A stretch of 26,197 bases of DNA, taken from the IMG/VR virus record IMGVR_UViG_3300024062_000056, positions 1-26,197 of that record. One strand, given 5' to 3'. Every line of letters begins with the position of its first letter. Position 1 is the first letter of the stretch. Below, in pieces: positions 18,456 through 26,197 of the stretch. This DNA is from a virus. Both the position numbers and the translations under genes were made by a program. A model generated the notes under the pieces. The model was not told where the DNA came from. It searched no databases and worked only from the letters and a program-made list of their open reading frames with translations.

Positions 18456-18463
18456 TAATATAC
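18456..18463 (-). promoter_or_regulatory. Leftward promoter-like element C
   Basis: GTATATTA on the minus strand, inside TTTTTTTTGTATATTATAAT, about 40 bases before the ATG at 18416. The same octamer after a T-run occurs at 19871-19878, and within elements A/B at 12458 (GTATATTT) and 16119. Candidate promoter core. Confidence 0.4.
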
Positions 18464-18472
18464 AAAAAAAAT

Positions 18473-19870: not shown

Positions 19871-19878
19871 TAATATAC
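19871..19878 (-). promoter_or_regulatory. Leftward promoter-like element D
   Basis: GTATATTA after seven T on the minus strand, 9 bases before the chosen ATG at 19862. It matches element C almost exactly around the core. The very short distance to the start would give a nearly leaderless mRNA if it is a promoter. Confidence 0.35.
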
Positions 19879-19890
19879 AAAAAAATAAGC

Positions 19891-20730: not shown

Positions 20731-20751
20731 TTAACCCTTTTATTCAATAAA
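20731..20751 (+). promoter_or_regulatory. Early promoter-like element, copy 1 of 8
   Basis: TTAACCCTTTT, four bases, AATAAA. The long RNA stem of the following small RNA begins at its last base, which suggests that transcription starts near the end of the element. Confidence 0.7.
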
Positions 20752-20849
20752 GAAAATTTAAGTGGGTAGATAGTTTATAACTGCAGTACTTCTGTCTCCT
20801 TATAGGGTAACTAAAAAGTTCAATAGCCTACTTAAGTTTTCTCTTTTTT
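20751..20849 (+). ncRNA. Small structured RNA 1 (about 100 nt)
   Basis: No ORF. AGAAAATTTAAGTGGG (20751-20766) pairs with CCTACTTAAGTTTTCT (20827-20842) over 16 bp with two G-T pairs. Inside, TAGTT/AACTA (20771-20775 with 20809-20813) and TATAA/TTATA (20776-20780 with 20800-20804) extend the rod with a GGGT bulge, and CAG/CTG may cap it. The 3' strand runs into CTCTTTTTTCC, so the same stem serves as terminator. The promoter-like element ends exactly at the 5' side and the next one begins at 20852. I infer a discrete small RNA delimited by promoter and terminator. The target is unknown. Confidence 0.65.
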
Positions 20850-20851
20850 CC

Positions 20852-20872
20852 TTAACCCTTTTAATTAATAAA
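20852..20872 (+). promoter_or_regulatory. Early promoter-like element, copy 2 of 8
   Basis: TTAACCCTTTT, four bases, AATAAA, beginning 3 bases after the T-run of small RNA 1 and leading straight into the first hairpin of small RNA 2. Confidence 0.7.
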
Positions 20873-20973
20873 GCACAAGTGTGCTTTGCTAGCAAGCTAT
20901 CAAATCCTCCTTCGCTTCACTATATCTTGGGCTGAAGCCTCAAGAATATAGGAAGGGGGTCCCCCCCTTTTTC
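20870..20973 (+). ncRNA. Small structured RNA 2 (about 100 nt) with G/C terminator
   Basis: No ORF. Hairpin AAAGCAC/GTGCTTT with a 4-nt loop (20870-20887). A second, longer arm has TATAT-CTTG-GGC (20921-20932) pairing with GCC-CAAG-ATATA (20937-20950) around a TGAA loop, with single-base bulges. Its base can be extended by CCTCCTTC (20906-20913) with GGAAGGGG (20952-20959). The same G-run can instead pair with the following CCCCCCCTT to make a compact terminator before TTTTTCC. The two alternatives exclude each other, so the 3' end could be regulated. Confidence 0.6.
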
Positions 20974-20985
20974 CACCGCGCATCA

Positions 20986-21011
20986 GAAAACTTTTATTAC
21001 ATAAAATTTTC
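20986..21011 (+). other. AT-rich hairpin before copy 3 of the element
   Basis: GAAAA-C-TTTTAT (20986-20997) pairs with ATAAAATTTTC (21001-21011) with one bulged C and a 3-nt loop, 10 bases before the promoter-like element. It could be a backup terminator or part of the promoter. Confidence 0.4.
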
Positions 21012-21021
21012 TTGTAAAGAC

Positions 21022-21042
21022 TTAACCCTTTTATGGCACAAA
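21022..21042 (+). promoter_or_regulatory. Early promoter-like element, copy 3 of 8
   Basis: TTAACCCTTTT, four bases, CACAAA. Its variable part contains an ATG (21033), which is not the likely gene start. From the element start to the chosen ATG at 21060 is 38 bases, the same as for copy 6 and close to the 40 of copy 5. Confidence 0.65.
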
Positions 21043-21059
21043 CTTTAAAATTTAAAATT

Positions 21060-21302
21060 ATGCCTAGAAAATCTAAGACATCATCGAAAGATAGTAAAAC
21101 TATCTTTGCGCCAATGTATTACAATTTACCACACACCAATGCTCCTGATTTCATCAAAGCTTCCATTAACATGAAAGTTGAAGAAATGCAAGATTTCATT
21201 GATGAACACGCATCAGAAGATAGTGACTATCTTAGATTTGATGTTGCACAAGCTCAATCTGGAAAATACCAGATTCGCTTGAACACATTCAAACCTTCCT
21301 GA
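21060..21302 (+). CDS. Small basic/acidic hypothetical early protein
   Basis: An 80-aa protein starting MPRKSKTSSKDSK, with a basic N-terminus, a middle helix NMKVEEMQDFIDEHASEDSD and a beta-like end (GKYQIRLNTFKPS). The upstream in-frame ATG at 21033 lies inside the promoter-like element and would probably not be transcribed. The ATG at 21060 has the A-rich leader and the 38-base distance seen in the other units, so I use it. A terminator follows 20 bases after the stop. Small early phage proteins of this size often modify host functions, but there is no specific evidence here. Confidence 0.6.
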   Translation: MPRKSKTSSKDSKTIFAPMYYNLPHTNAPDFIKASINMKVEEMQDFIDEHASEDSDYLRFDVAQAQSGKYQIRLNTFKPS

Positions 21303-21322
21303 TGCTAACACATTACCTAATG

Positions 21323-21348
21323 AGGGAGCTAACGCTCCCTTTTTTTTG
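21323..21348 (+). terminator. Intrinsic terminator of the first protein unit
   Basis: AGGGAGC/GCTCCCT stem (7 bp) with TAAC loop followed by an eight-T run, ending 6 bases before the next promoter-like element. Confidence 0.85.
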
Positions 21349-21353
21349 CTTTA

Positions 21354-21374
21354 TTAACCCTTTTACTTAACAAA
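21354..21374 (+). promoter_or_regulatory. Early promoter-like element, copy 4 of 8
   Basis: TTAACCCTTTT, four bases, AACAAA; 55 bases before the ATG of a 50-aa ORF. Confidence 0.65.
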
Positions 21375-21408
21375 AAACACGTTGAACTACAAACTAACCT
21401 ACAAAACA

Positions 21409-21561
21409 ATGCTCTCAGGAGAAACTCCTGAAGATGCAGAAGAACACACAAGACACTTCAAGACACTTGAAGCAGCAACAGCAGCTTGGCACGAGCTTGA
21501 TGCTTACACTTACGGAGGAACAGGCTTGACCTGCTTTGACACCAAACTAGAAGAAGCTTAG
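21409..21561 (+). CDS. 50-aa small ORF (early unit)
   Basis: ATG at 21409 to TAG at 21559-21561 encodes a 50-aa acidic peptide, MLSGETPEDAEEHTRHFKTL, ending FDTKLEEA. Support comes from its own promoter-like element upstream, an A/C-rich leader, and a terminator whose stem overlaps the last codons. Codons are used as in neighbouring genes and there is no competing frame. The middle (LEAATAAWHELDAYTYGG) is helical then Gly-rich. Function unknown. Confidence 0.6.
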   Translation: MLSGETPEDAEEHTRHFKTLEAATAAWHELDAYTYGGTGLTCFDTKLEEA

Positions 21562-21573
21562 GCTTCTTCTTTT
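21549..21573 (+). terminator. Terminator overlapping the stop of the 50-aa ORF
   Basis: AGAAGAAGC/GCTTCTTCT stem (9 bp perfect) with TTAG loop, followed by TTT. The TAG stop codon lies in the loop. The next element begins two bases later. Confidence 0.8.
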
Positions 21574-21574
21574 C

Positions 21575-21595
21575 TTAACCCTTTTTTCTAATAAA
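21575..21595 (+). promoter_or_regulatory. Early promoter-like element, copy 5 of 8
   Basis: TTAACCCTTTT, four bases, AATAAA; 40 bases from its start to the ATG at 21615. Confidence 0.7.
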
Positions 21596-21614
21596 CTTAA
21601 AACTTATAATTATT

Positions 21615-21974
21615 ATGGAAACAAGACATAAAGAAGAAGAAACAAAAGAAGCAATAGAAATAAAATGGATTGACATTAATGGTGCACAAGTAGTTGATGT
21701 AACACCTGACCATCATAGAGAATTAGCTTTAGTAGATTTAGAGGTTCTTAATAAACTTACTAAATTATTACCTATTGGTGATCTTTATGAAGTTAAGAGA
21801 AATCTTAAAGTAAACATAAGTGCTGCACGTTCTATAGAAGCTCTTGTAAAAGCTTGTGAAGACTTTACAGCATTTCATAAAACTGTTAACCTCATTCAAA
21901 AGATTAATGTTCAGCTTCATACTCCTGGAGAAGAAGATGATCTAGCTGTGGAAGCAACCCCATTAGCTTGTTAA
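21615..21974 (+). CDS. Acidic hypothetical early protein
   Basis: A 119-aa acidic protein, METRHKEEETKEAIEIKW..., with a probable helical core (REL ALVDLEVLNKLTKLLPIGDLYEVKRNLK, about 35-65; IEALVKACEDFTAFHKTVNLIQ, about 75-97) and an acidic tail (EEDDLAVEATPLAC). No recognised motif. It forms a single-gene unit with a promoter-like element before it and a terminator 6 bases after its stop. Confidence 0.7.
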   Translation: METRHKEEETKEAIEIKWIDINGAQVVDVTPDHHRELALVDLEVLNKLTKLLPIGDLYEVKRNLKVNISAARSIEALVKACEDFTAFHKTVNLIQKINVQLHTPGEEDDLAVEATPLAC

Positions 21975-21980
21975 ACAATG

Positions 21981-22004
21981 AGAGAGTAGAAATACTCTCT
22001 TTTT
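21981..22004 (+). terminator. Intrinsic terminator after the 119-aa gene
   Basis: AGAGAGTA/TACTCTCT stem (8 bp) capped by a GAAA loop, followed by TTTT; 3 bases before the next element. Confidence 0.85.
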
Positions 22005-22007
22005 CTT

Positions 22008-22028
22008 TTAACCCTTTTATTTATTAAA
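22008..22028 (+). promoter_or_regulatory. Early promoter-like element, copy 6 of 8
   Basis: TTAACCCTTTT, four bases, ATTAAA; 38 bases from its start to the ATG at 22046. Confidence 0.7.
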
Positions 22029-22045
22029 CTTTAAACTATATATAT

Positions 22046-22240
22046 ATGGAAAATTTACCAATTTATTTATTACAATGCCAAAAATGCATAACTATTACGG
22101 AAGATGATGCAATACGTCTTAATATTACAATGAATGAACTAATCAACAAAAAAGTTGATTTAACAAAGTATATTGAGCAATCAGTAGTTAATCATAATGC
22201 AGTTGGACAAATAGTAACCCTTAAATTAAAAATCAAATGA
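22046..22240 (+). CDS. Small hypothetical protein, first of a gene pair
   Basis: A 64-aa protein, MENLPIYLLQCQKCITITED, with one CxxC pair (Cys11, Cys14) near the N-terminus, a helical middle and a beta-like end (VGQIVTLKLKIK). The TGA stop overlaps the ATG of the next gene (ATGA), so the two are translationally coupled. Function unknown; the partner is a membrane protein with further CxxC motifs. Confidence 0.65.
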   Translation: MENLPIYLLQCQKCITITEDDAIRLNITMNELINKKVDLTKYIEQSVVNHNAVGQIVTLKLKIK

Positions 22241-22611
22241 AAAAATCAATATTAAACTTTCTAATGATGAGCATATTAATATCTCTCATTGGAGCACTAG
22301 CATTAGGAACATTAGAATATCTAATTGGCTCTACAGTATTATTCATTGTATGCATAGGACTTGTATTCATATCCGCAATTGCAATAATCCCATTTCAAAT
22401 TATGAAAGCTATTAACAAGCAAAGACCTAAATTTGAGATTTGTGATACTTGTGAAAATGTAATGACAATTAATGAATATTACGCAGGTGCAGGAGAATGC
22501 GCACCTTGTTGGCTAAAGAAAGTTGATGAAGAAATAGCTAATGAAGGGAAACCTGAAACATCAGAACCTATAAACTTCATACCTAACTACTATAAAAGAC
22601 ATAATCTATAA
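22237..22611 (+). CDS. Two-helix membrane protein with cytosolic zinc-binding tail
   Basis: A 124-aa protein with two membrane helices (about 7-25, FLMMSILISLIGALALG; about 30-55, IGSTVLFIVCIGLVFISAIA) and a soluble C-terminal part with CDTC (69-72) and CAPC (88-91) spaced by 15 residues, a probable zinc ribbon. A positively charged stretch (KAINKQRPK) follows the second helix, so the tail should face the cytoplasm. An early phage membrane protein with a zinc module may act on the host envelope or exclude other phages, but that is a guess. Coupled to the upstream gene by ATGA. Confidence 0.7.
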   Translation: MKKSILNFLMMSILISLIGALALGTLEYLIGSTVLFIVCIGLVFISAIAIIPFQIMKAINKQRPKFEICDTCENVMTINEYYAGAGECAPCWLKKVDEEIANEGKPETSEPINFIPNYYKRHNL

Positions 22612-22624
22612 ATGATTATGTTTT
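22599..22624 (+). terminator. Weak AT-rich terminator at end of membrane protein gene
   Basis: ACATAATC/GATTATGT stem (8 bp, 7-nt loop) overlapping the stop codon and followed by only TTT, 16 bases before the next element. Probably leaky. Confidence 0.45.
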
Positions 22625-22630
22625 AAAAAG

Positions 22631-22660
22631 TAGTTCATCTTAACCCTTTTTTTTATTAAA
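22631..22660 (+). repeat. 30-bp direct repeat, left copy, including promoter-like element copy 7
   Basis: TAGTTCAT plus the element TTAACCCTTTT (element starts 22640), four T, ATTAAA. It matches 23070-23099 at 28 of 30 positions. The two copies bracket the long structured RNA at 22680-23027. The identity extends 8-9 bases upstream of the element, further than between other copies. Confidence 0.75.
22640..22660 (+). promoter_or_regulatory. Early promoter-like element, copy 7 of 8
   Basis: TTAACCCTTTT, four bases, ATTAAA, followed not by a gene but by the long structured RNA. Confidence 0.7.
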
Positions 22661-22679
22661 GTTATAATATATGCTGAAT

Positions 22680-23027
22680 GGTTAACCTGCTAACCTTAAA
22701 CTTGTAACATTAAACGCAGATAAACTAATAGGACATACCGTGAACCTTTAGCAAGTTTTGTAGTCCGTTAACCTATAGAACTCTTTCCTATGTTGGTAGC
22801 TTAGTGGAAAGAGTCAAACAGAATAAATCTAGAAAACTAGATTTATAAAATAAGACTTCATTAGTCTATAAATGTATAGTATTTGAAATAGCACTAGCTG
22901 ATTAGCAAATTATCCTGGCAAGGATAAGGCATAGTGCGGAGTGATTATTGCATATCTCACTCAATTTAGCTTTTATATCCCAAGGGATTTTGGCTAATGT
23001 AGAATACATACAACTTATAGACTAATG
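22680..23027 (+). ncRNA. Long multi-domain structured RNA (about 350 nt)
   Basis: No ORF above a few codons. Domain 1: GGTTAAC (22680-22686) with GTTAACC (22767-22773), enclosing AAACTTG (22698-22704) with CAAGTTT (22752-22758), stacked on CTAA-AGG with CCTTTAG (ends 22751). Domain 2: ACTCTTTCC (22780-22788) with GGAAAGAGT (22806-22814). Domain 3: ATAAATCTAG/CTAGATTTAT (22823-22846). Domain 4: CATTAGTCTATAA (22859-22871) with TTATAGACTAATG (23015-23027), 13 bp perfect, closing a multibranch region with GCACTA/TAGTGC, TATCCT/AGGATA, GAGTGA/TCACTC, TTAGC/GCTAA and ATCC/GGAT capped by CAAG. Nested, mostly perfect helices at this density are not expected by chance. It is not a tRNA, tmRNA or any RNA class I can name. 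A promoter-like element precedes it. Confidence 0.7.
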
Positions 23028-23054
23028 GAGACACTGTTTTAACCCAAAAGAAAA

Positions 23055-23079
23055 AAATGAATTTTTTTATAGTTCATTT
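23055..23079 (+). other. AT hairpin after the long RNA
   Basis: AAATGAA (23055-23061) pairs with TTCATTT (23073-23079) around a T-rich loop, ending where the next promoter-like element begins. It may be a weak terminator for the upstream RNA, or part of the promoter. Confidence 0.4.
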
Positions 23080-23099
23080 TAACCCTTTTTTTTAATAAA
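23070..23099 (+). repeat. 30-bp direct repeat, right copy, including promoter-like element copy 8
   Basis: Same sequence as 22631-22660 with two mismatches. It contains the element TTAACCCTTTT from 23079, four T, AATAAA. It stands 72 bases (element start to ATG) before the 193-aa gene, a longer leader than in the other units, which holds a three-codon mini-ORF (ATG AAT TGC TAA). Confidence 0.75.
23079..23099 (+). promoter_or_regulatory. Early promoter-like element, copy 8 of 8
   Basis: TTAACCCTTTT, four bases, AATAAA, upstream of the 193-aa gene; the last copy that I can find in the window. Confidence 0.7.
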
Positions 23100-23150: not shown

Positions 23151-23732
23151 ATGGCAAACACAATGAAAAATCTTAAAGGTACTTTCCATCATTCCTTCAA
23201 GAATTACAAGACAAATGATGATGGTACAAGAACATTAAGAGGCATAGGTGCAATGTACTTAGTAAGCGGACCACAAGAAAGCATTGATGCATATCTTGAA
23301 ATTTGCGAGAATGTAGGATACGATATGGAAAGATTACTTGATGTAAAATCAGGAAAATACAAATATTGGGCAAACAAATCTCACGGTACAGGAAACATCA
23401 CTATCCAATTCAATATGGAGGCAGTAGATGAGGACGGAGTAATTACACCTTACGTCTTTGTAAAAGATGAGGTAGAAACTCACCTTCAAGGCGCATACCT
23501 AGATGCAAAGAATCAAGGTAATGAGCATTTAGCTCAAGGAATTGCAGATGCACAATTGAAAAAGCTACTTGCAAACATAGGAGGACAAGCACCTGTAACA
23601 AAGGTAGCACCTAAAGTGGAAGAGCCTGCAACTCCACCTGCAGATGTAGAAACGCCAATGGCAGCACCTACTACAAAGACAGGAGCAAAGACTAAAGCAA
23701 AAGCTAAAATAGATGACTTAGGCAAAGAATAA
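23151..23732 (+). CDS. Hypothetical early protein with Pro/Ala/Lys-rich tail
   Basis: A 193-aa protein. Residues 1-145 are a globular alpha/beta domain (FHHSFKNYKTNDDGTRTLRGIGAMYLV...; YWANKSHGTGNITIQFNMEAV). Residues about 146-193 are a disordered tail rich in Pro, Ala, Thr and Lys (VEEPATPPADVETPMAAP...KTKAKAKIDDLGKE). A folded core plus disordered tail with an acidic tip recalls single-stranded-DNA-binding proteins, and a DNA-replication role would suit this arm, but I see no OB-fold signature, so this is only a possibility. It has its own promoter-like element and a strong terminator. The codons look slightly richer in G/C than its neighbours. Confidence 0.7.
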   Translation: MANTMKNLKGTFHHSFKNYKTNDDGTRTLRGIGAMYLVSGPQESIDAYLEICENVGYDMERLLDVKSGKYKYWANKSHGTGNITIQFNMEAVDEDGVITPYVFVKDEVETHLQGAYLDAKNQGNEHLAQGIADAQLKKLLANIGGQAPVTKVAPKVEEPATPPADVETPMAAPTTKTGAKTKAKAKIDDLGKE

Positions 23733-25155: not shown

Positions 25156-25172
25156 ATTTAAATTCTAATAAA
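25152..25172 (+). promoter_or_regulatory. Degenerate relative of the promoter-like element
   Basis: TTAA, seven unlike bases, TTCT, AATAAA with the same total length as the eight true copies. The CCCTTTT core is missing. It lies just before the RNA cluster at 25198, so it may be a decayed or variant promoter, or chance in AT-rich DNA. Confidence 0.25.
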
Positions 25173-25197
25173 GAATTATAAAGATGTAAGATAAGGC

Positions 25198-25269
25198 AGT
25201 CCTTTAAATGATGGTACTATTTCTTAATCTAGGGTGGCAAGGACTCATTCCCTAGAGCATTTTTTTTTA
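25198..25269 (+). ncRNA. H-type pseudoknot followed by a T-run
   Basis: AGTCCT (25198-25203) pairs with AGGACT (25240-25245), while CTAGGG (25229-25234) pairs with CCCTAG (25250-25255). The arms interleave, which gives a classical pseudoknot with two perfect 6-bp helices. Nine T follow at 25260-25268, so the second helix could also act as a terminator, and formation of the first helix might change it. No ORF. Possible ligand- or protein-controlled attenuator or an RNA 3' end. Confidence 0.6.
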
Positions 25270-25273
25270 AATT

Positions 25274-25359
25274 AGAGATAGAATATGCTTCTACGCAGTA
25301 GCATTTTAGGTAATAAGCGTTCAGGAATTGACCTGTAAATAACTAACTTGTCTATCTCT
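25274..25359 (+). ncRNA. Closed RNA domain with internal hairpins
   Basis: AGAGATAGA (25274-25282) pairs perfectly with TCTATCTCT (25351-25359). Inside, ATG(C)-TT-CTAC (25285-25294) pairs with GTAGCAT (25298-25304), and CAGG (25322-25325) with CCTG (25332-25335). The size of about 86 nt resembles a tRNA, but the arms do not fit a cloverleaf: there is no 5-bp/7-nt anticodon arm and no TTCRANNC loop. Unknown RNA. Confidence 0.55.
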
Positions 25360-25364
25360 TAGAA

Positions 25365-25442
25365 TTGAAGTGGGGGATGACAGCTTGTGAAAGAGCTGGA
25401 TGCACAAAATCCTGCAGGTCTTTGCCTTGCACCTCGCTTCAA
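25365..25442 (+). ncRNA. Cloverleaf-like RNA domain closed by 11-bp stem
   Basis: TTGAAGTGGGG (25365-25375) pairs with CCTCGCTTCAA (25432-25442) including two G-T pairs. Inside are CAGCTT (25381-25386) with G/AGCTG (25393-25398), which resembles a tRNA D-arm, and GCA-GG (25414-25418) with CC-TGC (25425-25430, one bulge). It ends 20 bases before the ATG at 25463, a position suited to a leader element of that gene. It is not a canonical tRNA. Confidence 0.55.
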
Positions 25443-25462
25443 CAAAATTAAATCCCTAAGTT

Positions 25463-25693: not shown

Positions 25694-25703
25694 TACTAGC
25701 CAT

Positions 25704-26156
25704 CACTATGTAAATAGTGTAAATATCAAGGGAGAACTTAGGCAACTCCCATTTAAACAAATTAAGGTGTTGAAGAGCGTAAGCCCAGACGTGGCAGAAC
25801 CAACTTAATGGAGAGCAAAACATTTGCGTTGCTCACTCTCTCCCTTAGATATAGATTAGTTAGAGGGTCAGTTAGATGTACATCAACTTAAATCAACTCC
25901 GTAAGAGAGCCCTCTTACTAATCTTTACTAACCCCACGGAAATATCAAAGCAAGACGCAGAATGAAATACTTCTGCTATCACCGTGTATAAACTAAAGAG
26001 CCTGGTTGCTGGGATAGAGAAAACCTTAAATAACTATCCATACTGCTCAAAAGATTTTAATAGAATCTTTCATGTAAGAGCTTGATTAAAATATTTCTCT
26101 TGTGTAGAGGAAGTCCTATGTTGTCAGGACTTTAAACTATAGATGTTAAACTATAG
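25704..26156 (+). ncRNA. Long structured non-coding segment (about 450 nt)
   Basis: No ORF. Helices in order: CACTAT/ATAGTG with a GTAA loop (25704-25719); GGGAG/CTCCC (25730-25750); ATTAAG/CTTAAT (25761-25766 with 25804-25809); GAGCAA/TTGCTC (25813-25834); AGATTAGT-T-AGAGGG (25853-25867) with CCCTCT-T-ACTAATCT (25910-25924), 14 pairs around one T-T mismatch; CACGG/CCGTG (25935-25939 with 25982-25986) enclosing GCAGAA/TTCTGC; GGATAG/CTATCC (26012-26039); AAAGATT/AATCTTT (26050-26070); AAGTCCT/AGGACTT (26111-26132). A direct repeat TTAAACTATAG follows (26132-26156). It may continue past the right edge. One large RNA or several; no known class is recognised. Confidence 0.6.
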
Positions 26157-26197
26157 TGTAAAATAGACAAAACACATTGTAAACAGTACCTTTCTTG

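Follow-up and report, generated by a model that had tools for sequence, protein, structure and literature searches.

Which RNA polymerase starts transcription at the first genes of a crAss-like phage, and at which signal? The question is raised by a 26,197-nucleotide stretch of viral DNA (IMG/VR record IMGVR_UViG_3300024062_000056, positions 1 to 26,197; the window in the following), in which the element TTAACCCTTTT-N4-(A/C)(A/T)(T/C)AAA occurs eight times between positions 20731 and 23099, always on the + strand. The elements begin just to the right of a divergent junction, at which a leftward late block and a rightward block separate; the early status of the element-bearing cluster is taken from this position. 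The leftward genes encode a portal, a terminase and a major head protein of the crAss-like type (PHROG matches phrog_6547, phrog_6681 and phrog_11589), and their order is that of Crassvirales. These matches support the assignment of the window to an environmental crAss-like phage, as a previous sequence-only reading had proposed. Named phages are distant (terminase about 25% identical to crAss-like phages, portal 20-31% identity), and the close relatives are environmental IMG/VR contigs, which are referred to by handles such as G041 or L414. As is argued below, the eight elements are very probably promoters (probability about 0.85), and an RNA polymerase packaged in the virion is the best candidate for their reader.

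The elements occupy positions 20731-20751, 20852-20872, 21022-21042, 21354-21374, 21575-21595, 22008-22028, 22640-22660 and 23079-23099 (elements 1 to 8). Element 1, for example, reads TTAACCCTTTT-ATTC-AATAAA. The right half is AATAAA in four copies, ATTAAA in two, AACAAA in one and CACAAA in one (element 3). The coordinates, the N4 spacing and the CACAAA exception were all found as the sequence-only reading had given them. The 21-base pattern did not occur in 100 dinucleotide shuffles of the window, and a scan of the window itself yielded eight forward matches, no reverse match and none for a reversed-pattern control. An exact search for the 11-mer TTAACCCTTTT found no further copy on either strand of the window, in agreement with the claim that the element is absent from the minus strand and from the remainder of the window, and matches with one or two mismatches did not exceed the background. 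Inspection of the core by eye gave no inverted repeat.

Five of the eight elements precede short open reading frames (ORFs), while the other three precede structured RNAs without an ORF. It was verified that the distances from the element start to the ATG are 38, 40 and 38 nt for the genes at 21060, 21615 and 22046; the ORFs at 21409 and 23151 follow at 55 and 72 nt. The ORF-less stretches fold better than their shuffles. Putative small RNA 1 (20751-20849, +, z = -3.1) is a long hairpin, which is closed by a 5′-terminal stem and ends with a U-run, and putative small RNA 2 (20870-20970, +, z = -3.3) consists of a 5′-terminal hairpin and a G/C-rich, terminator-like hairpin. The first helices open at 20751 and 20870, which are bases 21 and 19 of the respective elements, and thus this part of the earlier description was reproduced. 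Behind element 7 a structured RNA of some 400 nt is predicted (403 nt, 22660-23062, +, z = -4.2), which none of 100 shuffles equaled in stability and for which no Rfam family was found. Elements 4, 5 and 6 are located immediately behind a hairpin followed by a T-run. Only in the first ~2.4 kb does every rightward unit have one element, as the earlier reading had it; beyond about 24100, the rightward genes lack a copy.

The exact motif of the window was essentially absent from the relatives, with three single matches in 36 records. In IMG/VR 72 scattered stretches had one match each, which were taken as chance. A scan of relatives for the motif, which had been proposed as a check, would therefore mislead when used in this form, because each element-bearing genome has its own sequence. 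A de novo search revealed a repeated element of their own, at the same place and in one orientation, in nine relatives: GGCATTTCTTTTA in G018 (5 copies), ACAGTTTCTNTAG in G028 (8), ACCCCTGAT in G033 (8), CCCCTGAC in L414 (10-11), GCCTTCGGCAG in G038 (7; followed by TACAGCTTA), AACAGCTCA in G041 (9), ACCTCTTYTNAC in G042 (7), ACTTCTTYNTAC in G045 (9-10) and AATATCTYTYATA in G050 (6). Two further cases were weaker (CTTAACTTCYTA in G027 and AAACTCTTGTA in G039), and a few copies of TTTAACCCTTT were found near ATGs in G051 and G012. Motifs were discovered by counting words, with mismatches allowed, rather than by a full probabilistic method, and genes were called with a simple ORF finder. A k-mer search of the whole region mostly returned tail-gene repeats from the opposite strand and gave way to a search that was restricted to the junction, with ORFs masked. 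In this search the reverse-strand scores are by design a mirror image of the forward-strand scores and were disregarded, while the tRNA T-loops that it found in named phages served as a positive control. The ten strong cases, including the window, had log10 scores of -9.9 to -24, compared to 0 to about -8 for the best shuffles and -4 to -9.5 for control windows.

All elements of the relatives are oriented like the early block, and their distance to the ATG is mostly 27-46 nt. The 9-mer of G041 (contig of 114 kb) occurs nine times and the 12-mer of G018 (contig of 109 kb) five times, in each case exclusively within the cluster and on one strand; judged by position, the motif thus stands only before early genes in both contigs, as do all eight copies in the window. 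A conserved sequence that is repeated upstream of transcription units in one orientation is typical of the promoter set of a phage-encoded RNA polymerase, and the elements exhibit this arrangement. Within reach of 20 of the 78 elements overall, and of three of the eight in the window, there is no ORF of at least 35 codons. ORF-less units were also observed in the early clusters of relatives, with short similar stretches in G033/L414, G041/G042 and G038/G045.

Comparisons between close relatives revealed that the element can be replaced as a set. The exonucleases of G041 and G042 are 99% identical, their late blocks match at 90-98% identity across more than 40 kb, and a stretch with 99.5% identity follows past the other side of the cluster. 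The intervening 2.7 kb are exactly the early cluster with all its elements, and they can be aligned in one gene only. The cluster contains nine copies of AACAGCTCA in G041 versus seven copies of ACCTCTTYTNAC in G042. In front of the common gene (84% amino acid and 85% nucleotide identity) the last ~12 bases of the leader have been kept, while the core differs. G027 and G028 (93%) exhibit the same pattern, and their shared gene is 95% identical in DNA. At other distances gradual change was observed: G033 and L390 (89% exonuclease identity) have an identical core, and in L414 (78% exonuclease identity) one base is changed in 10 of 11 copies. According to these comparisons, all elements of a genome share one sequence, which diverges with distance and can also be exchanged all at once, and the early cluster is hypervariable. 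Searches with the early proteins matched only the two pairs already known. Two otherwise long contigs are interrupted in the early cluster (G032 at its start, G057 at its ends), as though assembly had been stopped by variants in the population.

A different behavior was found for a motif on the late strand, a comparison that was made after the fact. TTTTGTATATTA, with at most one mismatch, is present in 19 of the 20 records examined, the window included, and its intergenic copies number 57 on the late strand versus 5 on the early strand, compared to 23 and 26 inside genes; some of the records are near-duplicates (G028/G032 and window/G001), so these counts are not all independent. In the window one copy is located at 18456-18467 (-), 51 nt before a late gene, and a second one, with one mismatch allowed, at 19871-19882 (-), about 20 nt before the ATG at about 19863. 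The motif, in the extended form TTTTGTATATTA(TAAT), is also found in G010, G032, G037, G038, G041 and others. A TTG is often located about 20 nt upstream of TATATT, which tentatively gives the motif some resemblance to the Bacteroidota promoter. TTTTGTATATTA(TAAT) is a candidate for a late promoter that the whole group has in common. A conserved late signal and a changing early one are what is expected if a conserved machine reads the former and a phage-specific one the latter.

Could the host RNA polymerase read the early elements, by a variant sigma specificity? Many phages use the host enzyme for their early genes, and the elements do have two boxes. However, the host-type -7 box TAnnTTTG was not enriched, with a single occurrence from -40 to +45 of the 78 elements versus 2.7 expected, and this agrees with the earlier statement that the element is unlike a host promoter. 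In addition, phages that have 93-99% identity in the conserved gene beside the terminase, and hence probably the same types of host, carry different elements, while the late-strand motif with its TTG remains constant. Reading by the host enzyme is therefore considered improbable. A somewhat better case, albeit still an unlikely one, can be made for operators that bind a phage regulator. In mycobacteriophage L5 the stoperators are short, asymmetric, oriented intergenic sites that co-evolve with their reader, and the elements would likewise be asymmetric and oriented sites, which occur once in each intergenic gap and evolve together with a repressor. A uniform set of sites with a lineage-specific sequence fits this explanation, and an exchange of the cluster would carry regulator and sites together, so that the replacement in G041/G042 would not need a change of the virion polymerase. 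The window's early ORFs, however, contain no recognizable DNA-binding protein according to Pfam (nor do any of the ten rightward proteins of this genome fragment have a Pfam DNA-binding domain), and none was recognized in the G041 and G042 translations, which were inspected by eye only. Operators would also need a promoter nearby, yet the host-type box is not enriched. Furthermore, the sites do not extend beyond the first 2-2.5 kb and stand at promoter distance, and the motif reaches into an A-rich box immediately ahead of the expected start point.

The two remaining explanations dispense with initiation at the element. The close and regular distance to the ATG would suit a signal for translation or processing in the 5′ leader of an RNA that starts further upstream. 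The elements without an ORF in reach speak against it, as do the two ORF-less units of the window that fold from just past the element and the elements directly behind terminators, and a role in the RNA is regarded as slightly more improbable than reading by the host enzyme. The least probable proposal, to which very little weight is given, is that the elements are repeats for recombination or replication, which provide homology for gene shuffling, make the cluster exchangeable and have no role in transcription. The hypervariability of the cluster and the contig breaks in G032 and G057 are in line with it; nevertheless, it leaves the fixed orientation and the regular start-codon distance unaccounted for, and repeats of 11-21 bp are short for homologous exchange.

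The promoter explanation is thus preferred. That transcription starts near the right border of the element, as put forward in the sequence-only reading, is well supported by the occurrence of one element per unit, its orientation and the regular ATG distance, and additionally by the RNAs that fold from element base 19-21, the terminators in front of several elements and the equivalent arrangement of different sequences in relatives. The promoter would be a two-part one, consisting of the 11-base core and the A-rich hexamer four bases further on, from which the first genes and small RNAs would be transcribed one by one. Concerning the second part of that reading, the assignment of the virion RNA polymerase as reader, the case is plausible, and we rate it somewhat above even odds. 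Early genes need either the host polymerase or an injected reader, and TAnnTTTG is not enriched at the elements. The polymerase would be packaged in the virion and injected together with the DNA, as in phi14:2, the early transcription of which is reported to be rifampicin-resistant and is attributed to its virion polymerase (review PMC10136315). The signature of the virion polymerase, GxDFDxDK, was found in ten relatives (G010, G018, G022, G032, G037, G038, G041, G044, G057 and G079), where it is located in giant proteins of the late block. The protein of G032 matched the catalytic subunit of phi14:2 at 9e-24, while no PDB match was obtained for a giant protein of G018. If the reader is encoded by the phage, the sequence of its promoter can drift or be exchanged, and therefore each lineage would have its own sequence, uniform within the genome.

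Several observations weigh against this interpretation. The hardest fact is the swap between G041 and G042, which would require that the polymerase or its specificity differs too; in G041 about 60 kb separate the polymerase gene from the junction, and the contigs of G042, G027 and G028 end before this gene. The gene is also absent from the 26-kb fragment that forms the window. A comparable element was not found in G010, G022, G037, G044 and most of the 41 junction loci, as far as the junctions are sequenced, and the named isolates phi14:2, crAss001, phi17:2 and csAssE-Sib have no strong element beyond tRNA T-loops. The element-free relatives could have more degenerate signals or use another scheme. 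Two control windows with scores of -9.5, both from G079, come close to the weakest positive case. The sequences themselves show that the elements are repeated, oriented, confined to the cluster at the junction, specific to a lineage, replaceable as a whole and not enriched in a host -7 box, while a start of transcription at the elements, its early timing and the virion polymerase as reader are inferred. A repeated TTGTAGARCT was observed in G079, in which the element type of the early cluster was not found; it is mostly intergenic and occurs on both strands (462, 6064, 6094, 95431, 87285 and others).

Known systems provide partial parallels. An early module at one genome end has been described for crAss001 (PMC8375218). 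In phi14:2, as in the window group, the late block and the rightward genes diverge from a junction, and the GxDFDxDK polymerase is found in the window's relatives; in contrast to the window, a strong repeated early element of this kind was not found in either phage. In the Thermus phage P23-45 a repeated AT-rich motif before the pre-early genes has been assigned to the virion polymerase gp96, a member of the two-barrel class, and related phages without this polymerase lack the motif (PMC10770324). P23-45 is a precedent for the assignment proposed here, with the difference that its relatives share a similar motif, whereas the sequence found here varies between genomes and can be replaced collectively. 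The virion RNA polymerase of N4 is injected and transcribes early genes, and its promoters are hairpins that are read as single strands. The proposed reader would likewise be early and injected, but no inverted repeat is evident in the cores except in G038 (GCC-TTC-GGC). In the T7 group (T7, T3, SP6, K11) a phage polymerase uses promoters of about 23 bp that are uniform per genome and differ between lineages, as the elements do; the single-subunit enzyme is, however, newly made and serves middle and late genes. The L5 stoperators are a similar type of site, but in the present case no repressor was found, and the sites are confined to the early cluster at promoter distance.

Phage-specific early promoters are a known kind of signal, and in this group they would be lineage-specific and exchangeable as a set. 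In the literature surveyed, which did not include the primary phi14:2 paper, no description of the promoter of a crAss-like injected polymerase was found. The elements would provide a direct candidate for it together with about a dozen natural variants, and the pairs G041/G042 and G027/G028 would be natural experiments on the co-evolution of polymerase and promoter. It is tempting to speculate, albeit tentatively and at well below even odds, that the early promoters are exchangeable alleles. The whole cluster would be swapped between near-identical phages along with matching changes of the virion polymerase, so that each phage has a private start signal, which the injected polymerase of a co-infecting phage cannot read, resulting in transcriptional incompatibility. 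If the promoter assignment is true, the borders of early clusters, early genes and small phage RNAs could be recognized from sequence in some uncultured crAss-like genomes.

The genes of the window's cluster are all on the + strand, and a confident Pfam match was not obtained for any of the short ORFs behind the five elements. Element 3 is followed by an ORF of 80 aa (21060-21302), for which an in-frame ATG at 21033 would fall within the element. ORFs of 50 aa (21409-21561) and 119 aa (21615-21974) follow elements 4 and 5, and behind element 6 there are two overlapping ORFs of 64 and 124 aa (22046-22611). The last gene of the cluster, behind element 8, encodes a protein of 193 aa (23151-23732), the structure prediction of which was unreliable (pLDDT 48) and was not used. 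It is a weak relative of the last cluster genes of G033 and L414 (E 0.004-0.014), while a dedicated search of IMG/VR and the named phages yielded no kin. A diverged protein family of last cluster genes is common to G033, L414, G018 and, weakly, the window (23151-23732; L190:19149-19475; L414:1113-1439; L175:2608-3138). The closest named portal to the group (31%) is that of the Leptolyngbya phage Lbo-JY46 (PP438436), which has many tRNA genes and was recorded from a cyanobacterium, a host assignment worth checking. Further to the right in the rightward block of the window, two more long stretches without long ORFs are located at 25160-25460 and 25700-26197, both without an element.

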